The position numbers were made by a program, and so were the translations under genes. From contig NZ_CP053713.1 of the NCBI RefSeq assembly GCF_013201075.1, positions 1 to 43,488 of the forward strand: a stretch of 43,488 nt of DNA, read 5' to 3'. Positions within the stretch are counted from its first letter, which is position 1, and the number at the start of each line of letters is the position of its first letter. The notes beneath the pieces are model-generated. The model searched no databases, was not told where the DNA came from, and saw only the letters and a program-made list of their open reading frames with translations. Origin of the DNA: Lichenicola cladoniae. Lineage in GTDB: Bacteria > Pseudomonadota > Alphaproteobacteria > Acetobacterales > Acetobacteraceae. Shown here piece after piece: positions 2,488 through 40,330 of this stretch.

Positions 2488-2494
2488 GGCATGT
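2488..2494 (+). repeat. IS21 target-site duplication, left copy
   Basis: GGCATGT here is repeated at 5161-5167, directly flanking the IS21-family element. A 7-bp duplication is within the normal 4-8 bp range for this family. Confidence 0.85.
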
Positions 2495-2500
2495 TGCGTG

Positions 2501-2615
2501 TTCCGGCTGATCCTGATCACTGATTCCGTTTGATGGTGATCATTGAATCCGTTCGATCTCGATCATGCATTCCGTTTGATGGCGATCATCGGTTCCGGTG
2601 ATCCTGATCATGCTG
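2501..2615 (+). repeat. IS21 left-end multiple terminal repeats
   Basis: Five imperfect direct repeats of about 22-23 bp with the core TTCCG..TGAT..TGATCA. They lie between the tip of the element and istA and are presumed IstA binding sites. Confidence 0.75.
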
Positions 2616-2698
2616 GAGATGACGATGCCGGTCGGCTGCCGCTGACAGTCTTCAACCGAGGGTAGTGTCGACCTGTTGCCGGGGAGCAAGGGGTCGGG

Positions 2699-4231
2699 AT
2701 GCCAGGCGAGAGAGTGTCGATGCGCAAGATACGCGAGCTTCTGCGGCTGCGGTTGGAACAGCGGCTGCCGCAGCGAACGATCGGACTGAGCCTGCGGCTG
2801 GGCCAGGGAACGATCAGTGATTACCTGGGCCGGGCCCATCGTGCTGGCCTGGATTGGCCATTACCGGATGACATGGACGACACGCAGCTTGAGGCGCTGC
2901 TGTTTCCGCCACTGCCGGATGTGCCGCTGGATCAGCGGCCGGTGCCAGACTGGGCGGCGGTTCACCGCGATTTGCGCCGGCCAAACATGACGCTGGCCCT
3001 GTTATGGGAAGAATACCGCGCAGGATCGGCTCACGCGTTTGGCTACTCGTGGTTTTGTGATCTCTATCGCGCGTGGGCCGGACGGTTGAAACCGACGCTG
3101 CGCCAGGTGCACACGGCCGGCGAAAAGCTGTTCGTCGACTTCGCCGGTCAGAGCATGTCCGTCATCGACGGGGCAAGCGGGGAGAAGCATCAGGCCGAAA
3201 TCTTCGTGGCTGTGCTGGGGGCGTCGAGTTTTGTCTACGTGGAGGCGACCTGGAGCCAGACGCTGCCGGACTGGATTTCGGCTCATGTCAACGCTCTGGC
3301 CTTCTTTGGCGGCGTGCCGCACCAGATCGTCAGCGACAATCTCAAGGCCGGCGTCACCAGGGCCTGTTTCTTTGAGCCGACGATCAATCGCACCTACGCC
3401 GAGATGGCGGCGCATTATCGCAGTGCGGTCATTCCGGCCCGGCCCTACAAGCCGCGCGACAAGGCCAAGGTCGAAGTCGGCGTGCAGGTGGTCCAGCGCT
3501 GGGTTCTGGCCCAGCTCCGTAACCGGCAGTTCTTCTCGCTGGCCGATCTCAACTTGGCGATCCGTGAGCTGGTCGAGCAGATCAACGACCGGCCGATGCG
3601 CGGCTGGGGCACGACGCGCCGTGCCCTGTATGAACAGCTCGATCGTCCGGCCCTGCTGGCGTTGCCAGAAGTGCCTTACGAGTATGCGGACTGGCGGTAC
3701 TGCCGGGTTAATCTCGATTATCACATCGAGATCGCCCGGCATTTCTATTCGGTGCCGTTCCGGCTGGTCCGTCAGCCTGTGGAGGCACGCATCACAACCA
3801 GGACGGTGGAGATTTTCCACCGCGGCAGCCTCGTGGCCACGCATCTTCGCAGCGTGCGCCAGCATCAGCCAAGCACGGTGAGCGACCACATGCCGAGCAC
3901 GCACCGGCGCTACCGCGACTGGACCCATGAGCGGATCACACGCGAGGCGATGGCAACCGGCGACGATACCGCGGCTCTGATCGAGATCGTGCTGCGCTCG
4001 CGGCCACATCCCGAACAGGGTTTGCGCTCCTGCATCGGTATCCTCGGCCTGCGTGGCCGTTACGGCCCGGAACGGGTGGACGCTGCCTGTGCCAAGGCCC
4101 TGGCACTCGGCACCCGCTCCTACGGCTCTGTCGCCGCGATCCTGAAGAATGCCCAGGAGAAAAAGTCCGCCATCACTGACCAGCCCAGCCTGATGCACGA
4201 GAACATTCGCGGTCCTGGCTACTATCATTGA
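2699..4231 (+). CDS. istA: IS21-family transposase IstA
   Basis: A 510-residue transposase that cuts and joins the element ends. Residues of about 5-60 form a helix-turn-helix (IRELLRLRLEQRLPQRTIGL). A DDE integrase core follows, with DFAGQ near residue 150, the second Asp in QIVSDNLKAGV near 220, and the Glu in DKAKVEVGVQ near 265. The C-terminus is the beta-barrel Mu-transposase-like region and ends in HENIRGPGYYH. Length is normal for the family. The gene overlaps the open frame of istB, which is the usual coupled arrangement. The same C-terminal motif occurs in the decayed copy at about 9107-9143, so two different IS21 elements visited this transposon. Confidence 0.93.
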   Translation: MPGERVSMRKIRELLRLRLEQRLPQRTIGLSLRLGQGTISDYLGRAHRAGLDWPLPDDMDDTQLEALLFPPLPDVPLDQRPVPDWAAVHRDLRRPNMTLALLWEEYRAGSAHAFGYSWFCDLYRAWAGRLKPTLRQVHTAGEKLFVDFAGQSMSVIDGASGEKHQAEIFVAVLGASSFVYVEATWSQTLPDWISAHVNALAFFGGVPHQIVSDNLKAGVTRACFFEPTINRTYAEMAAHYRSAVIPARPYKPRDKAKVEVGVQVVQRWVLAQLRNRQFFSLADLNLAIRELVEQINDRPMRGWGTTRRALYEQLDRPALLALPEVPYEYADWRYCRVNLDYHIEIARHFYSVPFRLVRQPVEARITTRTVEIFHRGSLVATHLRSVRQHQPSTVSDHMPSTHRRYRDWTHERITREAMATGDDTAALIEIVLRSRPHPEQGLRSCIGILGLRGRYGPERVDAACAKALALGTRSYGSVAAILKNAQEKKSAITDQPSLMHENIRGPGYYH

Positions 4232-10285: not shown

Positions 10286-11725
10286 ATGAATCCCAACCAA
10301 CACGTGTCGACGGTGCCGAACGTGGAACCTGAAGTCGCTGCCACCATGACGCCATGGCTTGTCGTAGTTCTGGCTGTCATCCTGCTCTCGGGCGCGTTGT
10401 TCGGCTACGACCAGGGTGTCATCTCAGGTGCCCTGACCAGCATCAAGAGGGAGTTCTCGCTCAGCGCGCTTCTGGTAGAGGTGGTGACCAGCTGGGTCAC
10501 GCTAGGCGCATTGTTCGGTGCGCTGTTGGGTGGCGAGCTGGCGGACCGGATAGGGCGTCAACGCGCGGTGTTGATTGCTGGCGTGGTCTTCACCCTCGGG
10601 TCGCTTGTGGAAGCGTTTGCCCCCGGCACGTTGATGCTGGTCGGCGGTCGGCTGATCGTGGGCTTCGGAGTCGGGGTCGCTGCCGTAGCGGCACCTTTAT
10701 ATGCCGCTGAACTGGCTCCCGCGGCGCTGCGCGGACGTTTCGTCTCGGCGTATCAGCTTGCCGTAGCCGGCGGCATCTTCGCTGCCTACCTCGTCGACGG
10801 ATGGCTGTCTGAAGCCGGGGCTTGGCGCTGGATGCTGGGCTTGTCGGCAGCACCGGGCCTGATGCTCATCGCCGTTGGGTTGCTGGCGCCGCAGTCGCCG
10901 AGATGGCTGATGCGGGTCGGCCGTCGGACCGACGCCGCCACCCAGATGAGGAAGATACACCCAGGCACCGACCCCGGTCCCGCCCTCGACGCGATCGCGA
11001 CCACGCTGGCAAATGATCGCGGTCAGGCGTCATGGGCTGAGGTGTTCGGCAAGCGGTGGCGTCGCCCATTGCTGGTTGGGGTGGGCCTAGCAGTGTTTCA
11101 GCAAATCACCGGCGTCAACGCGGTCATCTACTATGCGGATCAGATATTTCAGGCGGCCGGTTTCACGACCCAGGCAGCTCAGACAACGGTGACGACCTGG
11201 GCAGTGGGCGGCGTCAACGTTGCCGCCACGTTCATCGCCATAGCCTTCATAGACCGGCTGGGACGGCGCAAGCTGCTGCTGGCTGGATTGTTTGGCATGA
11301 CCCTGAGCCTTGTCGTCGTCGGCGCTGCCTTCGAGTTCATCACGACCGGCAACGCCCCACATCCTGCTGCTACGAGCACGGCGGGGATCGTGACGCTTGT
11401 GGCCCTCGTCGTGTTCATTGCCTGCTTTGCGTTCTCGCTGGGGCCGGTAGTCTGGACCGTCATCAACGAAATTTCCCCCGGGCATATTCGGGGCCGGGCG
11501 GTCGCGGTTGCAACCGCCGTCAACTGGGCAGCAGCATTCTTCGTTAGCCAGATTTTCCTGACGCTGATCGACACACTCGGTAATTCATTCACCTTCTGGC
11601 TGTTCGGTTTGTTCTGCATCGTTGGTTGGATATGGGTCTTCTACGCCGTGCCAGAAACCAAGGGCCGGTCGCTCGAGCAGATCCAGCTTCTATGGAAGAA
11701 AAGCGAACCAGAGCACGCCGGCTAG
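10286..11725 (+). CDS. MFS sugar porter (sugar:H+ symporter family)
   Basis: A 479-residue inner-membrane transporter with 12 predicted membrane segments. Family marks are FGYDQGVISGAL in helix 1, GGELADRIGRQ between helices 2 and 3, PLYAAELAPAALRGR after helix 4, PESPRWL-like PQSPRWLM before the central loop, QQITGVNAVIYYA in helix 7, DRLGRRKLLL, and the C-terminal VPETKGRSLEQ. This is the GalP/XylE/glucose-facilitator type that imports hexoses or pentoses. It lies just outside the right end of the Tn3 element. It could feed the oxidative sugar cassette at 33-40 kb, but that link is inference from content only. A hairpin terminator follows. Confidence 0.92.
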   Translation: MNPNQHVSTVPNVEPEVAATMTPWLVVVLAVILLSGALFGYDQGVISGALTSIKREFSLSALLVEVVTSWVTLGALFGALLGGELADRIGRQRAVLIAGVVFTLGSLVEAFAPGTLMLVGGRLIVGFGVGVAAVAAPLYAAELAPAALRGRFVSAYQLAVAGGIFAAYLVDGWLSEAGAWRWMLGLSAAPGLMLIAVGLLAPQSPRWLMRVGRRTDAATQMRKIHPGTDPGPALDAIATTLANDRGQASWAEVFGKRWRRPLLVGVGLAVFQQITGVNAVIYYADQIFQAAGFTTQAAQTTVTTWAVGGVNVAATFIAIAFIDRLGRRKLLLAGLFGMTLSLVVVGAAFEFITTGNAPHPAATSTAGIVTLVALVVFIACFAFSLGPVVWTVINEISPGHIRGRAVAVATAVNWAAAFFVSQIFLTLIDTLGNSFTFWLFGLFCIVGWIWVFYAVPETKGRSLEQIQLLWKKSEPEHAG

Positions 11726-33107: not shown

Positions 33108-34010
33108 TCAGGCGGATGCTAGTGTGCAGCGGCGCGGCACGCCGGTCCGGCTGGGCCGGAGCCGCAGCAGTCCGCCAGCATGTGGTTCGGCACGTCGCTG
33201 AGCATCGCTGAGCTTGTCGGCGGCGCTGGTGACGTAGAGCGTGTCGAGCTTCGGGCCGGCGAAAGCACACATAGTTGGCTGGCTGACCGGGAGCACGATG
33301 TCGCAGTCAATGCTGCCATCCTTGTTGAAACGACGTAGCCGGCCTGCCCCGTGTAGCGCGCACCAGTAGCCACCGTCGGTATCGACGGCGGCGCCATCGG
33401 GCAAGCCGTCCCCTTTGGGGATTGCAGCGAAGGTACGACGATGACTTAGCCGGCCGCTCTCGGGCTCGAAGTCGAAGCTCCAGATCACGCCCGCCTGACT
33501 GTGCGAGAGCAGAAATTGCCGACTATCGGCGCTCCACGCCATGCCATTATGCAGCTCTGCTGCGTCGGGTTCCGGCTTCAGCCCACCTGCCCTGGTGAAG
33601 CTGTGCAACGAGGCGGCGATCGGCACGCACACCCCTGGCTGCAGCGGGTCGAACATCACGCCCACCCAGAAGCGACCGGTCACGTCGCAGGCGCCCTCGT
33701 TGAAGCGGTGCAACGCCGGGTCGAACGGGGGCGGGGCGAGCAGCGTCAGCCTGCCCGATGCGAAATCCAGTGCGAAGACGCCGGTGCGGAGCGCTACGAC
33801 GGCGCCGGAGAGGTCATCGTCCAGCACGAACGCACCAATGTCGGACGGAAGCGGCCATGCCCGCTGCGCGCCGCTTTCTGGATGATAACGGTAGAGTGCC
33901 GGCTTCTTGACGTCGATCCAGTAGAGTGCTGCTTCGGAGGCGGACCACGTTGGTGATTCCCCAATCGTAGCACCTGCGTCCACAGCCAGCTCGATCACTT
34001 CGTCGGACAT
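33108..34010 (-). CDS. SMP-30/gluconolactonase family lactonase
   Basis: A 300-residue six-bladed propeller enzyme that opens sugar lactones to aldonic acids. AGGAGAT precedes the ATG at 34010. Metal-site residues can be placed: Glu 18 in ATIGESPTW, Asn in AELHNGMAWSAD, and Asp in GDGLPDGAAVDTDGG; HRFNEGACD and FWVGVM are also family marks. It is divergent from the ThDP-enzyme operon with 148 bp between starts. Next to a GMC sugar dehydrogenase and a sugar-acid dehydratase, its likely job is the hydrolysis of the lactone product. Confidence 0.88.
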   Translation of the reverse strand: MSDEVIELAVDAGATIGESPTWSASEAALYWIDVKKPALYRYHPESGAQRAWPLPSDIGAFVLDDDLSGAVVALRTGVFALDFASGRLTLLAPPPFDPALHRFNEGACDVTGRFWVGVMFDPLQPGVCVPIAASLHSFTRAGGLKPEPDAAELHNGMAWSADSRQFLLSHSQAGVIWSFDFEPESGRLSHRRTFAAIPKGDGLPDGAAVDTDGGYWCALHGAGRLRRFNKDGSIDCDIVLPVSQPTMCAFAGPKLDTLYVTSAADKLSDAQRRAEPHAGGLLRLRPSRTGVPRRCTLASA

Positions 34011-34158
34011 GCATCGATCTCCTGGTAGCGGTCTTGGTACAAGAAACGTCGATCGCCCTCCTCTGTCCATCTGCGGAACCAGATGGGGCGAACGGCGTAA
34101 AGCGGCAAGGCCTCGATCAGTATGCACCGGTCGACGCAGTACGGCGTGGAGACCAGCG
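34011..34158. promoter_or_regulatory. Divergent promoter region of the sugar cassette
   Basis: 148 bp between the lactonase and ThDP-enzyme starts. It must drive both directions. No regulator gene belongs to the cassette and I see no clear palindrome. Confidence 0.4.
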
Positions 34159-35943
34159 ATGAGCATGACCGTCAGCGATTTCGTGTGGAGCCGTCTCGGC
34201 GAGTGGGGCTTGAAGCGGGTGTTCGGCTATCCGGGTGACGGCGTTGGCGGGCTCGATTTGGCGCTTGAGCGAGCCAAAGAGAAGATGGCCTACGTCCAGG
34301 TGCGGCACGAGGAAATGGCCGCGTTCATGGCATCGGCGCATGCTAAGTTCACTGGCGAGGTCGGGCTTTGTTACGCAACGTCCGGACCCGGCGCGATCCA
34401 TCTGTTGACTGGCCTTTACGACGCCAAGATGGACCATGTACCGGTAGTGGCGATCGTGGGCCAGCAGGCGCGCACAGCGATCGGCGCACATTATCAGCAG
34501 GAGGTCGACCTCCAGGCGTTGTTCAAGGACGTCGCCAGCGAATATGTCGTGACGGCGATGGTGCCAGAGCAGATCAGGCACTGTATCGACCGCGCAGTGC
34601 GGATCGCTGCGACAACGCGCAGTGTGACCTGCGTTATCATTCCGAACGACCTGCAGGAACTTGCATACAAAGATCCACCACTCGTCCACGGTACCACGCA
34701 CACTGGTGTGGGTTATGCAGGCCCGGCGAAGCTTCCGGAGCAGTCGCTGCTGCATCAGGCCGCGGACGTCCTGAACGCTGGCAAGAAGGTCGCGATCCTG
34801 GTGGGGTCGGGTGCCCTCGGTGCGACAGACGAGGTAATCGCAATCGCTGAGAAGCTGCAGGCGGGTGTCTCGAAGGCGCTGCTCGGGAAGGCGGTACTTC
34901 CCGATTCCCTCCCCTGGTGCACAGGCGGGCTCGGGCTGCTTGGGACCAAGCCTTCCTGGGACCTCATGCAGGAATGCGATACGCTCCTGATGATTGGCTC
35001 TTCTTTTCCATATAGCGAGTTCCTGCCGAAGCCGGGCACGGCACGCGGTGTGCAGATCGATCTAGACGGTACAAGACTTAGCCTGCGCTATCCAATGGAA
35101 ATCAACATGGTGGGCGACTCCGCTACCGCGTTGAAGGCGCTACTGCCGCTGCTTGAGCAGAAGAAGCCCGGAAGCTGGCGCAAGGAGATCGAGAGCAACG
35201 TCGAAGCATGGTGGAAGACACTCGAGGACCGCGCCATGCAGCCGGCCAATCCGATCAATCCGCAACGGATCTTCTGGGAGGCGTCGAAACGCCTGCCGGA
35301 GAACTGCATCATGACCGGTGACAGCGGCTCGGTCGCAAACTGGTATGGCCGCGACATCAAGATGCGTCGCGGCATGATGGGATCGCTGTCCGGCAGTCTG
35401 GCCTCGCTCGGTGCGGCGACGCCCTATGCGGTGGCAGCAAAATTCGCGTTTCCTGACCGTGTGGTGCTGGCCTTCATCGGCGACGGCGCCATGCAGATGA
35501 ATGGCCTGAACGTAATGATTACCATTTCCAAATACTGGAGGGAGTGGTCGAACCCGAAGCTGATCGTGATGGTTCTTAATAACCAGGACCTGAACCAGGT
35601 CACGTGGGAGGAACGCGTCCAGCTCGGTTCCGGCAAGACAGAATCGACCCAGGCCATCCCAGATTTCGCCTACGACAAATATGCCGAACTGCTCGGTCTC
35701 AAGGGCATCGTCGTGCGTGACCCGGAGAAGCTGGGTGCCGCCTGGGACGAGGCATTCGCCGCCGACCGCCCGGTCATCATGAACGTTTATGCCGATCCGA
35801 ACGTGCCGCCGCTACCGCCGCACATCACCTTCAAGGACGCCAAGAACTTCCTGACCATGATGGCTACCGAACCGGAGCTCGGCAGCGTGCTCAAGAACAG
35901 TGCCAAGGAGCTATTGGCTAGCGTCCTGCCCAGCAAGCACTGA
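34159..35943 (+). CDS. ThDP-dependent enzyme (pyruvate oxidase/decarboxylase-like)
   Basis: A 594-residue three-domain thiamine-diphosphate enzyme. The activating Glu is in QVRHEEMAAFMASA near residue 51, the middle domain carries LVGSGALGATDEVI, and the metal/cofactor motif IGDGAMQMNGLN starts near 440 and ends with VLNNQDLNQ. It resembles pyruvate oxidase or PoxB-type dehydrogenase, but the C-terminal membrane-binding helix of PoxB is not evident. The reaction is probably the decarboxylation of a 2-oxo acid. It is the first gene of a five-gene operon with gaps of only a few bases or overlaps. Confidence 0.87.
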   Translation: MSMTVSDFVWSRLGEWGLKRVFGYPGDGVGGLDLALERAKEKMAYVQVRHEEMAAFMASAHAKFTGEVGLCYATSGPGAIHLLTGLYDAKMDHVPVVAIVGQQARTAIGAHYQQEVDLQALFKDVASEYVVTAMVPEQIRHCIDRAVRIAATTRSVTCVIIPNDLQELAYKDPPLVHGTTHTGVGYAGPAKLPEQSLLHQAADVLNAGKKVAILVGSGALGATDEVIAIAEKLQAGVSKALLGKAVLPDSLPWCTGGLGLLGTKPSWDLMQECDTLLMIGSSFPYSEFLPKPGTARGVQIDLDGTRLSLRYPMEINMVGDSATALKALLPLLEQKKPGSWRKEIESNVEAWWKTLEDRAMQPANPINPQRIFWEASKRLPENCIMTGDSGSVANWYGRDIKMRRGMMGSLSGSLASLGAATPYAVAAKFAFPDRVVLAFIGDGAMQMNGLNVMITISKYWREWSNPKLIVMVLNNQDLNQVTWEERVQLGSGKTESTQAIPDFAYDKYAELLGLKGIVVRDPEKLGAAWDEAFAADRPVIMNVYADPNVPPLPPHITFKDAKNFLTMMATEPELGSVLKNSAKELLASVLPSKH

Positions 35944-35946
35944 GCC

Positions 35947-37056
35947 TTGTTCGACATGCTGCCGATTGGCGTGGTGCGGGCACAGGCCTTTGCTATTCCA
36001 ACTGACGGCCCGGAGGCAGATGGTACCGCTTCCTGGGATAGTACCACTCTTGTCGTCGTACACGCGCAGGCCGGCGATTGGGAGGGGATCGGCTACAGCT
36101 ATGCCGATCTGTCCGTTGCGGCACTGGTAAACAGCAAGCTGGCATCGGTAATCGTGGGCAACGACGCAAGCGATCCGCCGCGCGCTTTGCGCCTGATGCA
36201 GGTTGTAGTGCGCAATCTTGGTCGCGATGGCATCGCCGCCTGCGCGATCTCGGCAGTCGACACAGCCTCATGGGACCTGAAGGCGAAGCTACTGGATGTG
36301 CCGCTGGCGCATCTGCTCGGGCAGTATCGCAACGCGGTGCCGATTTATGGCAGTGGCGGCTTCACCAACTACGATGATGGCCGTCTTGCCGAGCAACTCG
36401 CCAGATGGGTTGAGCATGATGGATGCCGTTGGGTAAAGATGAAGGTCGGCATGCATCCGGAGCGGGATCCAGAGCGGGTCTCGCAGGCGAAGGCGGCAAT
36501 CGGACCAGCTACGCTGTTCGTCGACGCCAATAATGCTTATGGCGTAAAGCAGGCGATCGAGTTCGCCAGACGCTTCCTCGACGAGCAGGACGTGAGATGG
36601 TTCGAGGAGCCAGTCTCGTCCGACGATCTCGTCGGACTGCGTCGCGTGCGTGATCAGGTATCGGCGGCGATAGAGATCGCCGCCGGCGAGTACGGTTACG
36701 AGCCGACCTACTTCCGGCGCATGCTGGAGGCAGGGGCAGTCGATGTGCTGCAGGCGGATGCCACGCGATGCGGCGGCGTAACGGGGTTTATGCTGGCAGC
36801 GTCGTTGCCGGAGGCGTTCCATGTCGACATATCGGCGCACTGCGCGCTGGCGCTGCATCGTCACCTTGGCACGGCGGCACCGCGGTTCCAGCATTGCGAG
36901 TGGTTCCATGACCACGTTCGGATCGAGCGCATGCTGTTCGATGGCGCGCCGGTGCCGCATGATGGTGCGATCATGCCCGATCCGGAGCGGCCCGGTTTTG
37001 GGCTCGTGTTCAAGCGGCAGGACGCGGAACGCTTCGCCGTCTGCACAGGGAGCTGA
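35947..37056 (+). CDS. Enolase-superfamily sugar-acid dehydratase (mandelate racemase group)
   Basis: A 369-residue protein, or 366 from a later ATG; the TTG at 35947 starts three bases after the previous stop. Acid/base and metal residues are in place: Lys 164-x-Lys 166 (KMKVG), Asp 193 (DANNAY), Glu 220/221 (FEEP), Glu 248 (AAGEYGYE), Asp 271 (QADATRCGG) and His 298 (DISAHCALALH). The KxK lysines with the Asp-His dyad are typical of mandelate-racemase-like acid-sugar dehydratases, which turn aldonic or aldaric acids into 2-keto-3-deoxy acids. The substrate is not determined. Confidence 0.87.
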   Translation: MFDMLPIGVVRAQAFAIPTDGPEADGTASWDSTTLVVVHAQAGDWEGIGYSYADLSVAALVNSKLASVIVGNDASDPPRALRLMQVVVRNLGRDGIAACAISAVDTASWDLKAKLLDVPLAHLLGQYRNAVPIYGSGGFTNYDDGRLAEQLARWVEHDGCRWVKMKVGMHPERDPERVSQAKAAIGPATLFVDANNAYGVKQAIEFARRFLDEQDVRWFEEPVSSDDLVGLRRVRDQVSAAIEIAAGEYGYEPTYFRRMLEAGAVDVLQADATRCGGVTGFMLAASLPEAFHVDISAHCALALHRHLGTAAPRFQHCEWFHDHVRIERMLFDGAPVPHDGAIMPDPERPGFGLVFKRQDAERFAVCTGS

Positions 37057-37058
37057 GA

Positions 37059-38039
37059 ATGGCGCGCGACATGACCGCACTGGGCAGCTCGGGCATGGCG
37101 GCGTTGGGGCTGGCAAGCCTGGCTGCAACCCGGCTGAAGCAACAGGCAACGTCTCGTTTGGCAAAGACGCAGAATCAGGCGGCCTCGTCTCCTAGCGCCC
37201 CAGCACGGCTCGATCCGGATGCGGCTGTTCACGCCGCACGTCGGCTCAATCGTGCTGCCGGGGTGCTCGCCGCCTCGGTGCTGGCCGACAGCGCTGTGGA
37301 GCATTATCGCGGCCAATTCCACAACAGGGCTATGGTCACGCCGCTGGTAACGGCCAGCTTGTCGCTCGCGGTGAGCGCGCACGGCAACGCCGACAAGCGG
37401 CCGGTTGCACACCGCGCGCGCGACGGCGTCTATCTGCTGGCAGCCGCGACAGGAGTGATCGGCACGGGGTTCCATCTTTACAACGTACTGAGCAAGCCTG
37501 GTGGGCTGAGCTGGCAGAATTTGTTCTATTCAGCTCCACTTGGTGCGCCGGCAGCGCTCTCGCTTTCGGGTGCTATGGGTTTCCTCGCCGAGCGAGTGCG
37601 GGATACCTCTCCAGGCTCGTCGCCGATGATTGCCGGCGTCGCTGCGGGCCGTGTCGTCGGCGTCGCGACGAGCGTCGGCCTGCTCGGAACAATGGGTGAA
37701 GCTGGGCTGCTGCATTTTCGCGGAAACTACCAGAACCCGTTCATGTATGTGCCGGTGTCGCTACCACCGGTAGCAGCTGCTGCGCTGGGGCTGGCGGCCC
37801 TCGGCCGTACTGGGCAGCGCAGCCGATGGGCGCGCACTTTGCTGCGGCTGACCGCGGCGATGGGTTATGCCGGCGCCGGGTTTCATCTACGTGGCGTGGC
37901 GCGGCAAATGGGCGGCTGGCGCAACTGGAGCCAGAACATTCTGAACGGGCCGCCGGTGCCGGCGCCACCGAGCTTCACTGGGCTTGCCATGGCGGGGCTC
38001 GCGGCGCTCGGCCTTCTGGAGGACCATCCCGATGACTGA
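37059..38039 (+). CDS. Membrane protein of the sugar-oxidation operon
   Basis: A 326-residue, Ala/Gly-rich protein with several hydrophobic segments (MAALGLASLAA; GVLAASVLA; LVTASLSLAVSA; GVYLLAAATGVIGTGFHLYN; AAAALGLAALG; GLAMAGLAALGLL). It lies two bases after the dehydratase and overlaps the next gene. I do not recognise a family. The HFRGNYQNPFMYVPVSLPP segment lies between membrane parts. It could anchor the dehydrogenase in the membrane or link it to the quinone pool; this is inferred from its operon position. Confidence 0.65.
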   Translation: MARDMTALGSSGMAALGLASLAATRLKQQATSRLAKTQNQAASSPSAPARLDPDAAVHAARRLNRAAGVLAASVLADSAVEHYRGQFHNRAMVTPLVTASLSLAVSAHGNADKRPVAHRARDGVYLLAAATGVIGTGFHLYNVLSKPGGLSWQNLFYSAPLGAPAALSLSGAMGFLAERVRDTSPGSSPMIAGVAAGRVVGVATSVGLLGTMGEAGLLHFRGNYQNPFMYVPVSLPPVAAAALGLAALGRTGQRSRWARTLLRLTAAMGYAGAGFHLRGVARQMGGWRNWSQNILNGPPVPAPPSFTGLAMAGLAALGLLEDHPDD

Positions 38040-38697
38040 TCATGACGGCACGCGCAATCCGGACCGTTACCCGGACTATGACGTGATGAGCAAGCAGTTC
38101 TCGCCGTCTTGGAACGAGGTCACGCGCAAGGTGGTGCATGCGCGCCTTGCCGTGCCGCGGGAACCGCGTTTCTTCAATCAGGGCGAGTGGGACACCCTGC
38201 AGGCAGTCTGCGCCCGGATCATGCCGCAGCCGGCGACCGGTGCGATTATTCCCCTTCCCGCCTATGTCGACGCCAAGATTACCGAGAAGCACGAGGATGG
38301 TTACCGATATGCGTCGCTGCCGCACCAGGGTGAGGCGTGGCAGCGCGGATTGGCAGCGCTCGACCAGGAGGCGGCGGACTCGCACGGTGCTCGCTACCAT
38401 CTGCTGACACCGGAGCAGCAGGACGCATTGCTGCAGCGGATGCAGGATGGCAAGCTGGATTGCAGCGCGTGGCAGGGCATGCCGTGCAAGCTGTTCTTCG
38501 AGCACCGCGTGATCGCCGACATCACGCATGCCTATTATGCCCATCCGATCGCCTGGAACGAGATCGGCTTCGGCGGTCCAGCCAGTCCCCGCGGCTATGT
38601 GCGCATGGGGCTCAATCGCCGCGATCCATGGGAAGCGGCTGAAGCGCATCCCGGCAAGGAAGCGCACGCAAGGCGGGAGAACAAGCGTGTCGGCTGA
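38032..38697 (+). CDS. Gluconate 2-dehydrogenase subunit 3 (gamma)-like protein
   Basis: A 221-residue protein with the subunit-3 pattern: FFNQGEWDTLQAVCARIMPQ, IPLPAYVDAKITEKHEDGYR, LLTPEQQDALLQRM, and the C-terminal HAYYAHPIAWNEIGFGGPAS. In characterised enzymes this subunit helps mature and export the large flavin subunit. Here there is no twin-arginine signal at the N-terminus, unlike the classic periplasmic form. Start and stop overlap the neighbouring genes. Confidence 0.87.
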   Translation: MTDHDGTRNPDRYPDYDVMSKQFSPSWNEVTRKVVHARLAVPREPRFFNQGEWDTLQAVCARIMPQPATGAIIPLPAYVDAKITEKHEDGYRYASLPHQGEAWQRGLAALDQEAADSHGARYHLLTPEQQDALLQRMQDGKLDCSAWQGMPCKLFFEHRVIADITHAYYAHPIAWNEIGFGGPASPRGYVRMGLNRRDPWEAAEAHPGKEAHARRENKRVG

Positions 38698-40330
38698 TCC
38701 GTTCGCTGCACCACGTGGTGCCAATGGCCGAGCTCCGGACATTTTCTCCGAAGATGGCTGGATGCCGATGCGGCAGTATAGCGAGGACGAGGCCGTCGAT
38801 TTCTTGGTGATCGGCACCGGTGCCGGTGGCGCACCACTAATCGCCGGCCTCGCTGAAGGCGGCTTCTCGGTGGTAGGTTTCGATGCCGGTCCGTGGTTCC
38901 GTCCGTTGGAAGAGTTCGCTTCCGACGAGCAGGAGCAGAACAAGCTCTACTGGACCGACACGCGCGTCGTCGACGGCGCTAATCCGATGGTGATGGGCGG
39001 TAAGAATAGCGGCAAGGCGGTCGGTGGCAGCACCGTGCATTTCGCAATGGTATCACTGCGGTTCAGGCCCGACTGGTTTAAATCGCGCACTACGCTCGGC
39101 TACGGCGCTGACTGGCCGCTCGATTGGCGCGAGATGTGGGACTACTACACGAAGGCCGAGCAGGCTCTGAAGATCTCCGGCCCGGTTGTCTATCCGTGGG
39201 GCCCGAAGCGGCCACGCTATCCCTATCGCGCTCACGAACTTAATAGCGCGGCTGAGCTGCTTGGTCGCGGTGCCGAGGCAATGGGGATTCGCTGGACGCC
39301 AACACCGCTCGCCACCGTATCGGCGCCACGCGGCGATAGCCCGCCCTGCGTCTACCGGGGCTATTGCCGGTTCGGCTGCTCGACCAATGCCAAGCAGAGC
39401 GCGCTGGTCGCGTTCGTGCCGCGTGCAGTCAAGGCCGGCGCCGAGATCCGCGATCTCGCCATGGTCGGGCGCATCGAGGTAGACAGCAGCGGACGTGCCA
39501 CCGGCGTGCACTACATTCGCGAGGGAAAGTGGCGGTTTCAGCGCGCGCACAACGTGATCGTGGCAGGCTACGCGGTCGAGACGCCGCGTCTGCTGCTAGC
39601 ATCGGCGACCGACCGCTACCGAGACGGACTCGCCAACAGTTCCGGCCTGGTCGGCAAGAACCTGATGACGCAGTCTAACCAGGCAGTATTTGGAACGATG
39701 CAACAGGAGGTGCGCTGGAACAAGGGACCGCCTTCGCTGTCGCTCACCGAGCACTGGAACTACGACGACCGCAAGGACTTTTCTGGCGGCTATTGCTGGA
39801 TGGCGCAGGGCCCGCTGCCGGTCGAATGGGTGACGGTACAGACTGGCTCACGCGGCTTGTGGGGCCAGAAGCTCATCGACGAGATGGAAAAATACAACCA
39901 TCAGGTTGGGCTTAAGATGGTTGGCGAGATGCTGCCAGATGAGCGCAACACTGTCACACTCGATGATGAGGTCGACCAATACGGGCTGCGCGTTGCCCGC
40001 GTTACGTACAGCTGGGGCGATAACGACAAGGCGCTGATCCAGCATGCACTCAGCCAGATGCAGACCAGCCTGGAGGCGGTCAGTGCTACCGACATCTTCC
40101 GACAGGAGAACGATACGAACCATCTCGGCGGCACCGCCCGCATGGGCAATGACCGTCGAAACAGCGTCGTCAATGCTGATTGTCGAAGCTGGGATATTCC
40201 CAATTTATGGGTCTGCGACGGCTCGGTGTTTCCAACCGTCGGCGGCGTCAATCCGTCACTAACCATTACCGCAATCGCGATGCGAACGGTAGATCGGATC
40301 AAGCAGATGGCTAAGCGCGGGGAGCTTTAA
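38687..40330 (+). CDS. GMC-family flavoprotein oxidoreductase (sugar/gluconate dehydrogenase-like)
   Basis: A 547-residue FAD enzyme with a GTG start inside the previous gene. The FAD loop is VIGTGAGGAPL at residues 41-51. A cysteine cluster Cys 221-x5-Cys 227-x3-Cys 231 (CVYRGYCRFGCSTN) lies where related sugar dehydrogenases carry a metal- or Fe-S-binding region. The catalytic His is in HLGGTARMG near 479 and the partner Asn in GGVNPSLTI near 521. No signal peptide is seen. With the subunit-3 protein it should oxidise a sugar or sugar acid and pass electrons to a quinone or cytochrome; no cytochrome c subunit gene is present in the operon. Confidence 0.88.
   Translation: MSADPFAAPRGANGRAPDIFSEDGWMPMRQYSEDEAVDFLVIGTGAGGAPLIAGLAEGGFSVVGFDAGPWFRPLEEFASDEQEQNKLYWTDTRVVDGANPMVMGGKNSGKAVGGSTVHFAMVSLRFRPDWFKSRTTLGYGADWPLDWREMWDYYTKAEQALKISGPVVYPWGPKRPRYPYRAHELNSAAELLGRGAEAMGIRWTPTPLATVSAPRGDSPPCVYRGYCRFGCSTNAKQSALVAFVPRAVKAGAEIRDLAMVGRIEVDSSGRATGVHYIREGKWRFQRAHNVIVAGYAVETPRLLLASATDRYRDGLANSSGLVGKNLMTQSNQAVFGTMQQEVRWNKGPPSLSLTEHWNYDDRKDFSGGYCWMAQGPLPVEWVTVQTGSRGLWGQKLIDEMEKYNHQVGLKMVGEMLPDERNTVTLDDEVDQYGLRVARVTYSWGDNDKALIQHALSQMQTSLEAVSATDIFRQENDTNHLGGTARMGNDRRNSVVNADCRSWDIPNLWVCDGSVFPTVGGVNPSLTITAIAMRTVDRIKQMAKRGEL

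Follow-up and report, generated by a model that had tools for sequence, protein, structure and literature searches.

The window analysed here is the whole of a 43,488-nucleotide stretch of Lichenicola cladoniae DNA (contig NZ_CP053713.1, positions 1 to 43,488), and our subject is a group of six genes at 33108-40330 that a first-pass annotation, made from the letters alone, had described as a plasmid-borne oxidative sugar cassette with a membrane subunit. Five packed genes on the + strand encode a thiamine diphosphate (ThDP) enzyme, a dehydratase-like protein, an eight-transmembrane (8-TM) protein, a Gluconate_2-dh3 protein (subunit-3) and a GMC flavoprotein; an SMP-30 lactonase gene adjoins them and is divergently oriented. 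These genes almost certainly belong to a conserved unit, which is most likely a module for respiratory sugar or sugar-acid oxidation, widely but thinly spread. The features of the locus are listed below, with the evidence for each in parentheses (Tat, twin-arginine translocation; FAD, flavin adenine dinucleotide).

33108-34010, - strand: SMP-30/gluconolactonase-type lactonase, 300 residues (Pfam SGL, 1.1e-69; nearest solved chains are regucalcin)
34011-34158, no strand: divergent intergenic region, 148 bases (gene boundaries)
34159-35943, + strand: PoxB-like ThDP(/FAD) enzyme, 594 residues (TPP_enzyme_N/M/C; NCBIfam NF006129, 1007.6 bits, cut-off 724)
35947-37056, + strand: enolase-superfamily acid-sugar-dehydratase-like protein, 369 residues, TTG start (Pfam MR_MLE_C, 2.7e-59)
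37059-38039, + strand: 8-TM membrane protein, 326 residues, with a two-fold internal repeat and four invariant His (repeat score, alignments, AlphaFold2)
37224-37628, + strand: repeat 1 of the membrane protein, residues 56-190, with His82 and His139 (half-against-half alignment; homologous to stand-alone single-repeat proteins)
37629-38036, + strand: repeat 2 of the membrane protein, residues 191-326, with His219 and His276 (half-against-half alignment; single-repeat homologues)
38032-38697, + strand: Gluconate_2-dh3 (subunit-3 or 'hitchhiker') protein, 221 residues, no Tat motif (Pfam PF13618, 2.4e-23)
38687-40330, + strand: GMC flavoprotein of the fructose/FAD-glucose dehydrogenase type, 547 residues, GTG start (Pfam GMC_oxred_C/N)

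All six genes lie where the first-pass annotation had put them, with the overlaps or gaps of a few bases that it described: 3 bases separate the ThDP and dehydratase genes and 2 bases the dehydratase and membrane protein genes, while the membrane protein gene overlaps the subunit-3 gene by 8 bases and the latter overlaps the GMC gene by 11. Since the window is the entire contig and a MobA/MobL relaxase is encoded on it, a plasmid location of the operon is likely, as had been proposed. The operon is preceded in the window by a tyrosine recombinase gene and followed by IS630 and IS110 transposase genes.

Relatives were collected with the membrane protein as query, from 22 plasmid records and from one genome collection, in which the best 80 of at least 274 confirmed relatives were kept. 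The main set selected in this way contains 91 loci (80 from genomes and 11 from plasmids; the window is excluded), and extra plasmid loci (two from Deinococcus, one from Frondihabitans and one from Embleya) were obtained with a Granulicella protein as query. Subunit-3 is encoded in 90 of the 91 loci, the GMC protein in 87, the ThDP enzyme in 77, the dehydratase in 64 and the lactonase in 18. The five-gene order of the window, which the first-pass annotation had recommended looking for in other genomes, is present in 51 of these loci (48 without the other one of the six genes, and L014, L023 and L034 with the lactonase), so the association of the genes is more than chance; scattering of the operon genes in relatives, which would have spoken against a cassette, did not occur in the loci examined. 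In seven loci the ThDP gene is inserted between the genes for the membrane protein and subunit-3. Four loci are without a GMC gene: L046 and L073 end within ∼0.6 kb of the membrane protein gene, L021 stops within subunit-3, and L045 has neither subunit-3 nor GMC despite 4.2 kb of DNA. Some of the loci without a ThDP or dehydratase gene are also incomplete stretches (e.g. L035 and L072).

Because the 91 loci had been chosen through the membrane protein, genome sampling was added. The membrane protein was found in five of 60 relatives, three of 142 genomes of the class and five of 398 genomes of the phylum (the window's own genome is included in each count), and all ten distinct positive genomes (own included) encode subunit-3 and GMC beside it. 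GMC orthologues scoring above 900 bits were found in seven genomes (in sets of 60 and 385), all seven of which also encode the membrane protein. Distances between pairs of sequences are correlated among the five proteins (r 0.62-0.79), which is what co-inheritance as a unit would produce. The module is distributed sparsely and patchily, plasmids included: the ThDP-containing set is found in loci titled Alpha-, Beta- and Gammaproteobacteria, Deinococcus and Granulicella (Acidobacteriota), and the Frondihabitans (actinobacterial) plasmid has just a half-size membrane protein, subunit-3 and GMC. The invariant part is the membrane protein, subunit-3 and GMC, usually plus the ThDP enzyme.

A few loci have interrupted frames: the GMC gene contains one TGA in G029 (L123/L106), which is among the ten positive genomes, is split in L065 and gives only a partial match in L060, and the ThDP match falls into several pieces in L016; either sequencing error or decay would account for these. 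The Embleya locus (L127), where a ThDP gene and a single-repeat membrane protein gene are present in fragments, is apparently a decayed remnant.

The nearest solved chains to the GMC protein, both of which it was aligned with, are 7w2j and 6a2u (fructose dehydrogenase and the FAD-glucose dehydrogenase of Burkholderia cepacia, BcGDH). Numbered by the first row of the GMC alignment, H119, C222, C228, C232, H480 and N523 align with His105, Cys212/218/222 and His476/Asn519 of BcGDH, which are the FAD link, the 3Fe-4S ligands and the catalytic pair, respectively, according to the sections of PMC6719666 used here. The FAD-linking His, the 3Fe-4S Cys triad and the catalytic His/Asn are kept in 84-85 of 85 GMC sequences, that of the window included. 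At the position of BcGDH Cys213, a residue disulfide-bonded to the small subunit, the window protein has Val; the same source describes such cysteines as not generally conserved (PMC6719666). Glucose was tried as a candidate substrate and rejected: the position of the glucose-contacting Asn475 of BcGDH is C in 45, N in 30, A in nine and S in one of the 85 sequences, so glucose itself is not indicated.

Subunit-3 scores 83.4 bits against PF13618 (cut-off 23.4), and neither a profile search of PDB sequences nor a fold search (none at E ≤ 0.001) matched it to a solved subunit-3 structure. Hydrophobic segments were found at the N-terminus of none of 97 subunit-3 sequences (the window and its copies among them); RR strings occur in three of the 97, in no case with a hydrophobic stretch behind. 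The control set comprised every Gluconate_2-dh3 match (17 in total) in 11 nearby genomes: the twin-arginine motif is present in seven out of seven ordinary paralogues, but in none of four membrane-protein-linked proteins and none of six proteins of an intermediate class (in two of these six, a hydrophobic stretch precedes the match within the open frame, the start of which is uncertain). The first-pass annotation had said as much of the window's subunit-3, and had also reported no cytochrome subunit, in agreement with Pfam, which recognised no cytochrome family among the six window genes. At the N-terminus of GMC no Tat motif or hydrophobic segment was seen by eye in the alignment. Cytoplasmic GMC and subunit-3 are, in our judgement, probable. 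The annotation had posed a choice, in which either the enzyme is cytoplasmic or the membrane protein takes the place of the cytochrome; the accompanying membrane protein is real, but the choice is not, as both can hold.

Fructose dehydrogenase, BcGDH and gluconate 2-dehydrogenase have in common with the window a subunit-3 and a GMC protein with the FAD-linking His, the 3Fe-4S Cys and the His/Asn pair. The window unit differs from these three complexes in having no Tat motif and no recognised c-type cytochrome subunit, and an unclassified 8-TM protein instead. Lacking two defining features, the Tat signal and a recognised c-type cytochrome, it falls outside the three-subunit periplasmic complex and represents a variant form of the Fe-S/flavin sugar dehydrogenases.

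The intermediate class (L118-L121, L138 and L141-L145) consists of Tat-less subunit-3/GMC pairs whose GMC proteins score about 437-507 bits in genome searches; genes for the membrane protein, ThDP enzyme and dehydratase were not found alongside, and an FMN_dh gene is near in L120. The window genome also encodes a 776-residue single-chain fusion of subunit-3 and GMC (G000 contig 2, about 200823-203153; L100:4824-7154, - strand), in which no Tat motif was seen and a Cys-rich motif like the 3Fe-4S site is kept; it adjoins genes for a DAO-type flavoprotein and a TctC-type receptor protein.

The membrane protein matches no Pfam or NCBIfam family at E 1e-3 and no PDB sequence up to E 10, and Pfam at lax thresholds gave only scattered weak matches for its 83 members (31 families, best E 0.0027). 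AlphaFold2, given 70 sequences thinned to <88% identity, predicts a confident bundle (predicted local distance difference test 88.6, predicted template-modelling score 0.83) of eight long helices plus an N-terminal helix that is missing from some relatives. The two halves of the protein align with a score of 118, compared with a maximum of 60 in 1000 shuffles. His82, His139, His219 and His276 are invariant in the alignments of 83 and 70 sequences: there are two in each repeat, with an equal spacing of 57 residues, and in the predicted fold the four are near the same ends of helices 1, 3, 5 and 7. Three plasmids, two from Deinococcus and one from Frondihabitans (L125, L126 and L128), encode a version of 154-157 residues beside subunit-3 and GMC. 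Since this half-size version matches both repeats far above shuffles and retains both His, the long form appears to be a dimer of 4-TM units joined into one chain. In L125 and L128 the subunit-3 and GMC matches lie in one open frame, and in L125 a small protein with a below-cut-off VKOR match precedes the half-size membrane protein.

The nearest solved chain to the ThDP enzyme is the PoxB-type 3ey9 (269 bits, nearly full length). It shares with PoxB (pyruvate:ubiquinone oxidoreductase) the ThDP motif and catalytic Glu (kept in 76-77 of 77 sequences) and the FAD-region motifs, all of which we take to have their customary roles, but differs at three pocket positions: F112, V380 and F465 of PoxB are replaced by Q (77/77), S (76/77) and Q (77/77), with Q/S/Q in the window. 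The F465 position is presumably that of a pyruvate pocket residue. In the C-terminal tail, where PoxB has a lipid-binding amphipathic helix, the best moment is at the 96th percentile of the protein's own 11-mers. Replacements of F112 and V380 alter the activity of PoxB and its preference between pyruvate and 2-oxobutyrate; the variants given in the portion of PMC7824062 used here include neither Q nor S. Being PoxB-like, the enzyme is probably an oxidative, FAD- and quinone-linked decarboxylase, and its pocket would suit a polar 2-keto acid of larger size, for example a 2-keto-3-deoxy sugar acid. The first-pass annotation had assigned a decarboxylation step to a ThDP enzyme; the cofactor assignment stands, but a plain decarboxylase gives way to a PoxB-like one.

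For the dehydratase the nearest solved chain is 3cyj (361 bits), which belongs to an enolase group that to our knowledge has no assigned function. Its KxK motif, D/E/E metal ligands and His-Asp dyad, which we take to be the residues of an acid-sugar dehydratase, are invariant in 64 out of 64 sequences, and the protein falls below every named NCBIfam equivalog cut-off (best 172.4 bits, cut-off 500). We are fairly confident that the substrate of the unit is carbohydrate-derived. The series that had been read from the gene set (sugar to lactone to aldonate to 2-keto-3-deoxy acid to decarboxylation product) keeps its sugar-acid enzymology, but neither the lactonase (18/91) nor the dehydratase (64/91) is an invariant part of it.

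Taken together, the unit may be a relative of the Fe-S/flavin sugar dehydrogenases that works in the cytoplasm and is linked to the membrane. GMC would oxidise a sugar or sugar derivative and, as its conserved residues suggest, pass electrons from FAD to the 3Fe-4S cluster; subunit-3, with no Tat motif, would be retained as a structural partner that has lost its export role. The 8-TM protein would stand in place of the c-type cytochrome subunit and deliver the electrons to the quinone pool, perhaps via b-hemes or a quinone site built by its four invariant His. The dehydratase and the optional lactonase would lead to a 2-keto-3-deoxy sugar acid, and the PoxB-like ThDP enzyme would decarboxylate this acid oxidatively, also feeding quinone. 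Whether electrons leave through the membrane protein appears to us evenly balanced. The best explanation overall, at a confidence slightly short of even, is that a sugar(-acid) dehydrogenase of the Fe-S/flavin type acts in the cytoplasm and passes its electrons to the membrane via the 8-TM protein; the full route as written is more tentative. It is rather doubtful that the 326-residue protein represents a new membrane electron-transfer family, i.e. a two-fold symmetric bundle, at first a homodimer of a 4-TM two-His unit and fused later, whose hemes or quinone site link a cytoplasmic 3Fe-4S/FAD sugar dehydrogenase to respiration. This family of sugar dehydrogenases is valued for direct electron transfer, and descriptions of it feature Tat export and cytochrome subunits of the c type (PMC6719666, in the sections used); a conserved, mobile version without Tat or cytochrome, working with an unclassified membrane protein of two-fold build and with a probable oxidative decarboxylase of keto acids, would, if true, reveal a further way of connecting sugar oxidation with respiration. 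Such a version would also suggest a function for NF006129, for which the NCBI name is only 'thiamine pyrophosphate-requiring protein', and for the 3cyj enolase group.

Several observations weigh against electron transfer through the 8-TM protein. Counts of lysine plus arginine place its His-bearing, most conserved face outside in 83 out of 83 members (15.8 versus 7.9), where a cytoplasmic GMC would not meet it; this is the main conflict, and the net charge of the two sides in the same members is near equal (about +7.0 versus +5.9). When the PDB was searched by fold with the membrane protein, nothing matched at E ≤ 0.001 (the best E was 0.44) and a heme protein is hence not supported, but the missing match is weak evidence because a similar search missed the solved relatives of subunit-3. 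Tat-less subunit-3/GMC pairs are found elsewhere without such a membrane neighbour, in four out of four regions of 12-14 kb and six out of six loci of 3.4 kb (two from the same genomes), and the window genome's own fusion has no such protein alongside; the intermediate class and the fusion thus weaken the idea that a cytoplasmic GMC needs this partner. As to the proposed route, the dehydratase was not seen in 27 and the lactonase in 73 of the 91 loci, some of which are incomplete. The membrane protein may instead be a transporter that brings a sugar, lactone or sugar acid in, or a product out, with no part in electron transfer: eight TM helices, a two-fold repeat and a half-size homologue are like those of many small transporters, the conserved face is predicted outside and no known electron carrier fold was found. 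Subunit-3 and GMC, however, accompany the membrane protein more strictly than the ThDP enzyme and dehydratase do (90 and 87 versus 77 and 64 of 91 loci), and the membrane protein gene overlaps that of subunit-3 in the window. Moreover, L055 and L066 keep the membrane protein, subunit-3 and GMC with ∼10 kb upstream that contains no ThDP or dehydratase match, and so do L037 and L076 with ∼3 kb upstream (L035 ends there). We consider a transporter unlikely.

The four-gene core was already in print in 2015 as the 'pyruvate oxidase operon' of Asaia bogorensis (Asbog_02184-02187; PMC4596401), called unique to that species and highly expressed in co-culture, with function and location left open in the portion of that report used here. 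It consists of genes for a ThDP enzyme, a multi-TM protein, Gluconate_2-dh3 and GMC in the same order as in our Asaia loci (L051, L053, L057 and L068); as described there it has no dehydratase or lactonase, unlike the window, and we found the ThDP-containing set far more widely than in one species. The system, which the first-pass annotation had offered as a candidate for an undescribed one, is therefore not wholly undescribed, but it is conserved beyond the published case. Read as that report suggests, the genes would form a membrane-associated pyruvate oxidase operon in which PoxB acts on pyruvate and the other three are accessory, possibly periplasmic. The shared gene order and PoxB as the nearest solved relative of the ThDP enzyme are in line with this; the near-uniform Q, S and Q at the F112, V380 and F465 positions (77/77, 76/77 and 77/77), a subunit-3 without Tat motif, and the dehydratase, lactonase and GH15 neighbours, a poor fit for pyruvate, are not. 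We regard a pyruvate oxidase operon as improbable; its label is probably misleading and would be replaced. Slightly more improbable still is a GMC/subunit-3/membrane protein complex that some unknown mechanism exports or turns towards the periplasm, and whose membrane protein would serve as a quinone reductase on the periplasmic side. Such a complex would suit the conserved face predicted outside and the periplasmic relatives of the GMC family (PMC6719666, as far as the sections used go), but not a subunit-3 without Tat motif or hydrophobic N-terminus and a GMC in which neither was seen by eye. In the literature searched, which leaves subscription journals mostly outside, we found no other account of the five genes as a set, of how widely they occur or of the family to which the membrane protein belongs.

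Neighbouring genes were counted in 92 loci (the 91 and the window in full) as single-linkage clusters over the whole fetched stretch. Short-chain dehydrogenases are found in 40 loci, GH15 in 23 and FMN_dh in eight, and among respiratory genes COX1 is found in 15 and COX2-cytochrome c in 13; because single-linkage clusters span whole fetched stretches, these counts may be inflated, above all that for short-chain dehydrogenases. Cytochrome c genes are in the flanks of some loci only. In L008 (a Burkholderia multivorans plasmid) the operon, with an inverted ThDP gene, is flanked by cytochrome c oxidase genes on one side and cytochrome bd-type genes on the other, and in Frondihabitans an aldose 1-epimerase gene is close to the operon. 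GH15, FMN_dh, the aldose 1-epimerase and the ASRT-type genes described below speak for a sugar context, and COX1 and COX2-cytochrome c for a respiratory one.

FNR/FixK-like control by low oxygen was considered and rejected: in 16 of 73 loci a site with at most two mismatches precedes the ThDP gene, versus 18 of 365 single-base shuffles, a weak signal, and the window's own site falls inside the lactonase gene. The portions used of three papers on microoxia and Burkholderia (PMC6515984, PMC6127331 and PMC3155924) contain nothing tying the operon to low oxygen; a single GMC gene named in PMC6515984 decreases in microoxia and is not linked to this operon.

Genes of the ASRT (sensory rhodopsin transducer) type are located within a few kb of the operon in four annotated loci, from Nitrobacter, Croceicoccus and two Deinococcus plasmids (L005, L010, L125 and L128); that of L125 is a PF07100 gene. 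In Rubrobacter, ASRT genes have been described beside pyruvate decarboxylase/oxidase and dehydratase/racemase genes (PMC2739507), a combination that recurs here in the Nitrobacter and Deinococcus D7000 loci. The main text of that account contains 'gluconate' and 'GMC' 0 times, and the sections of it used here mention neither the membrane protein nor subunit-3. Elsewhere in the window, positions 2494-3000, which lead into an rve/Mu-type transposase gene, have 100% identical copies at six other sites of the genome (the query ended at 3000), and an MFS gene of the sugar-transporter family at 10286-11725, on the same contig, may serve in substrate uptake.

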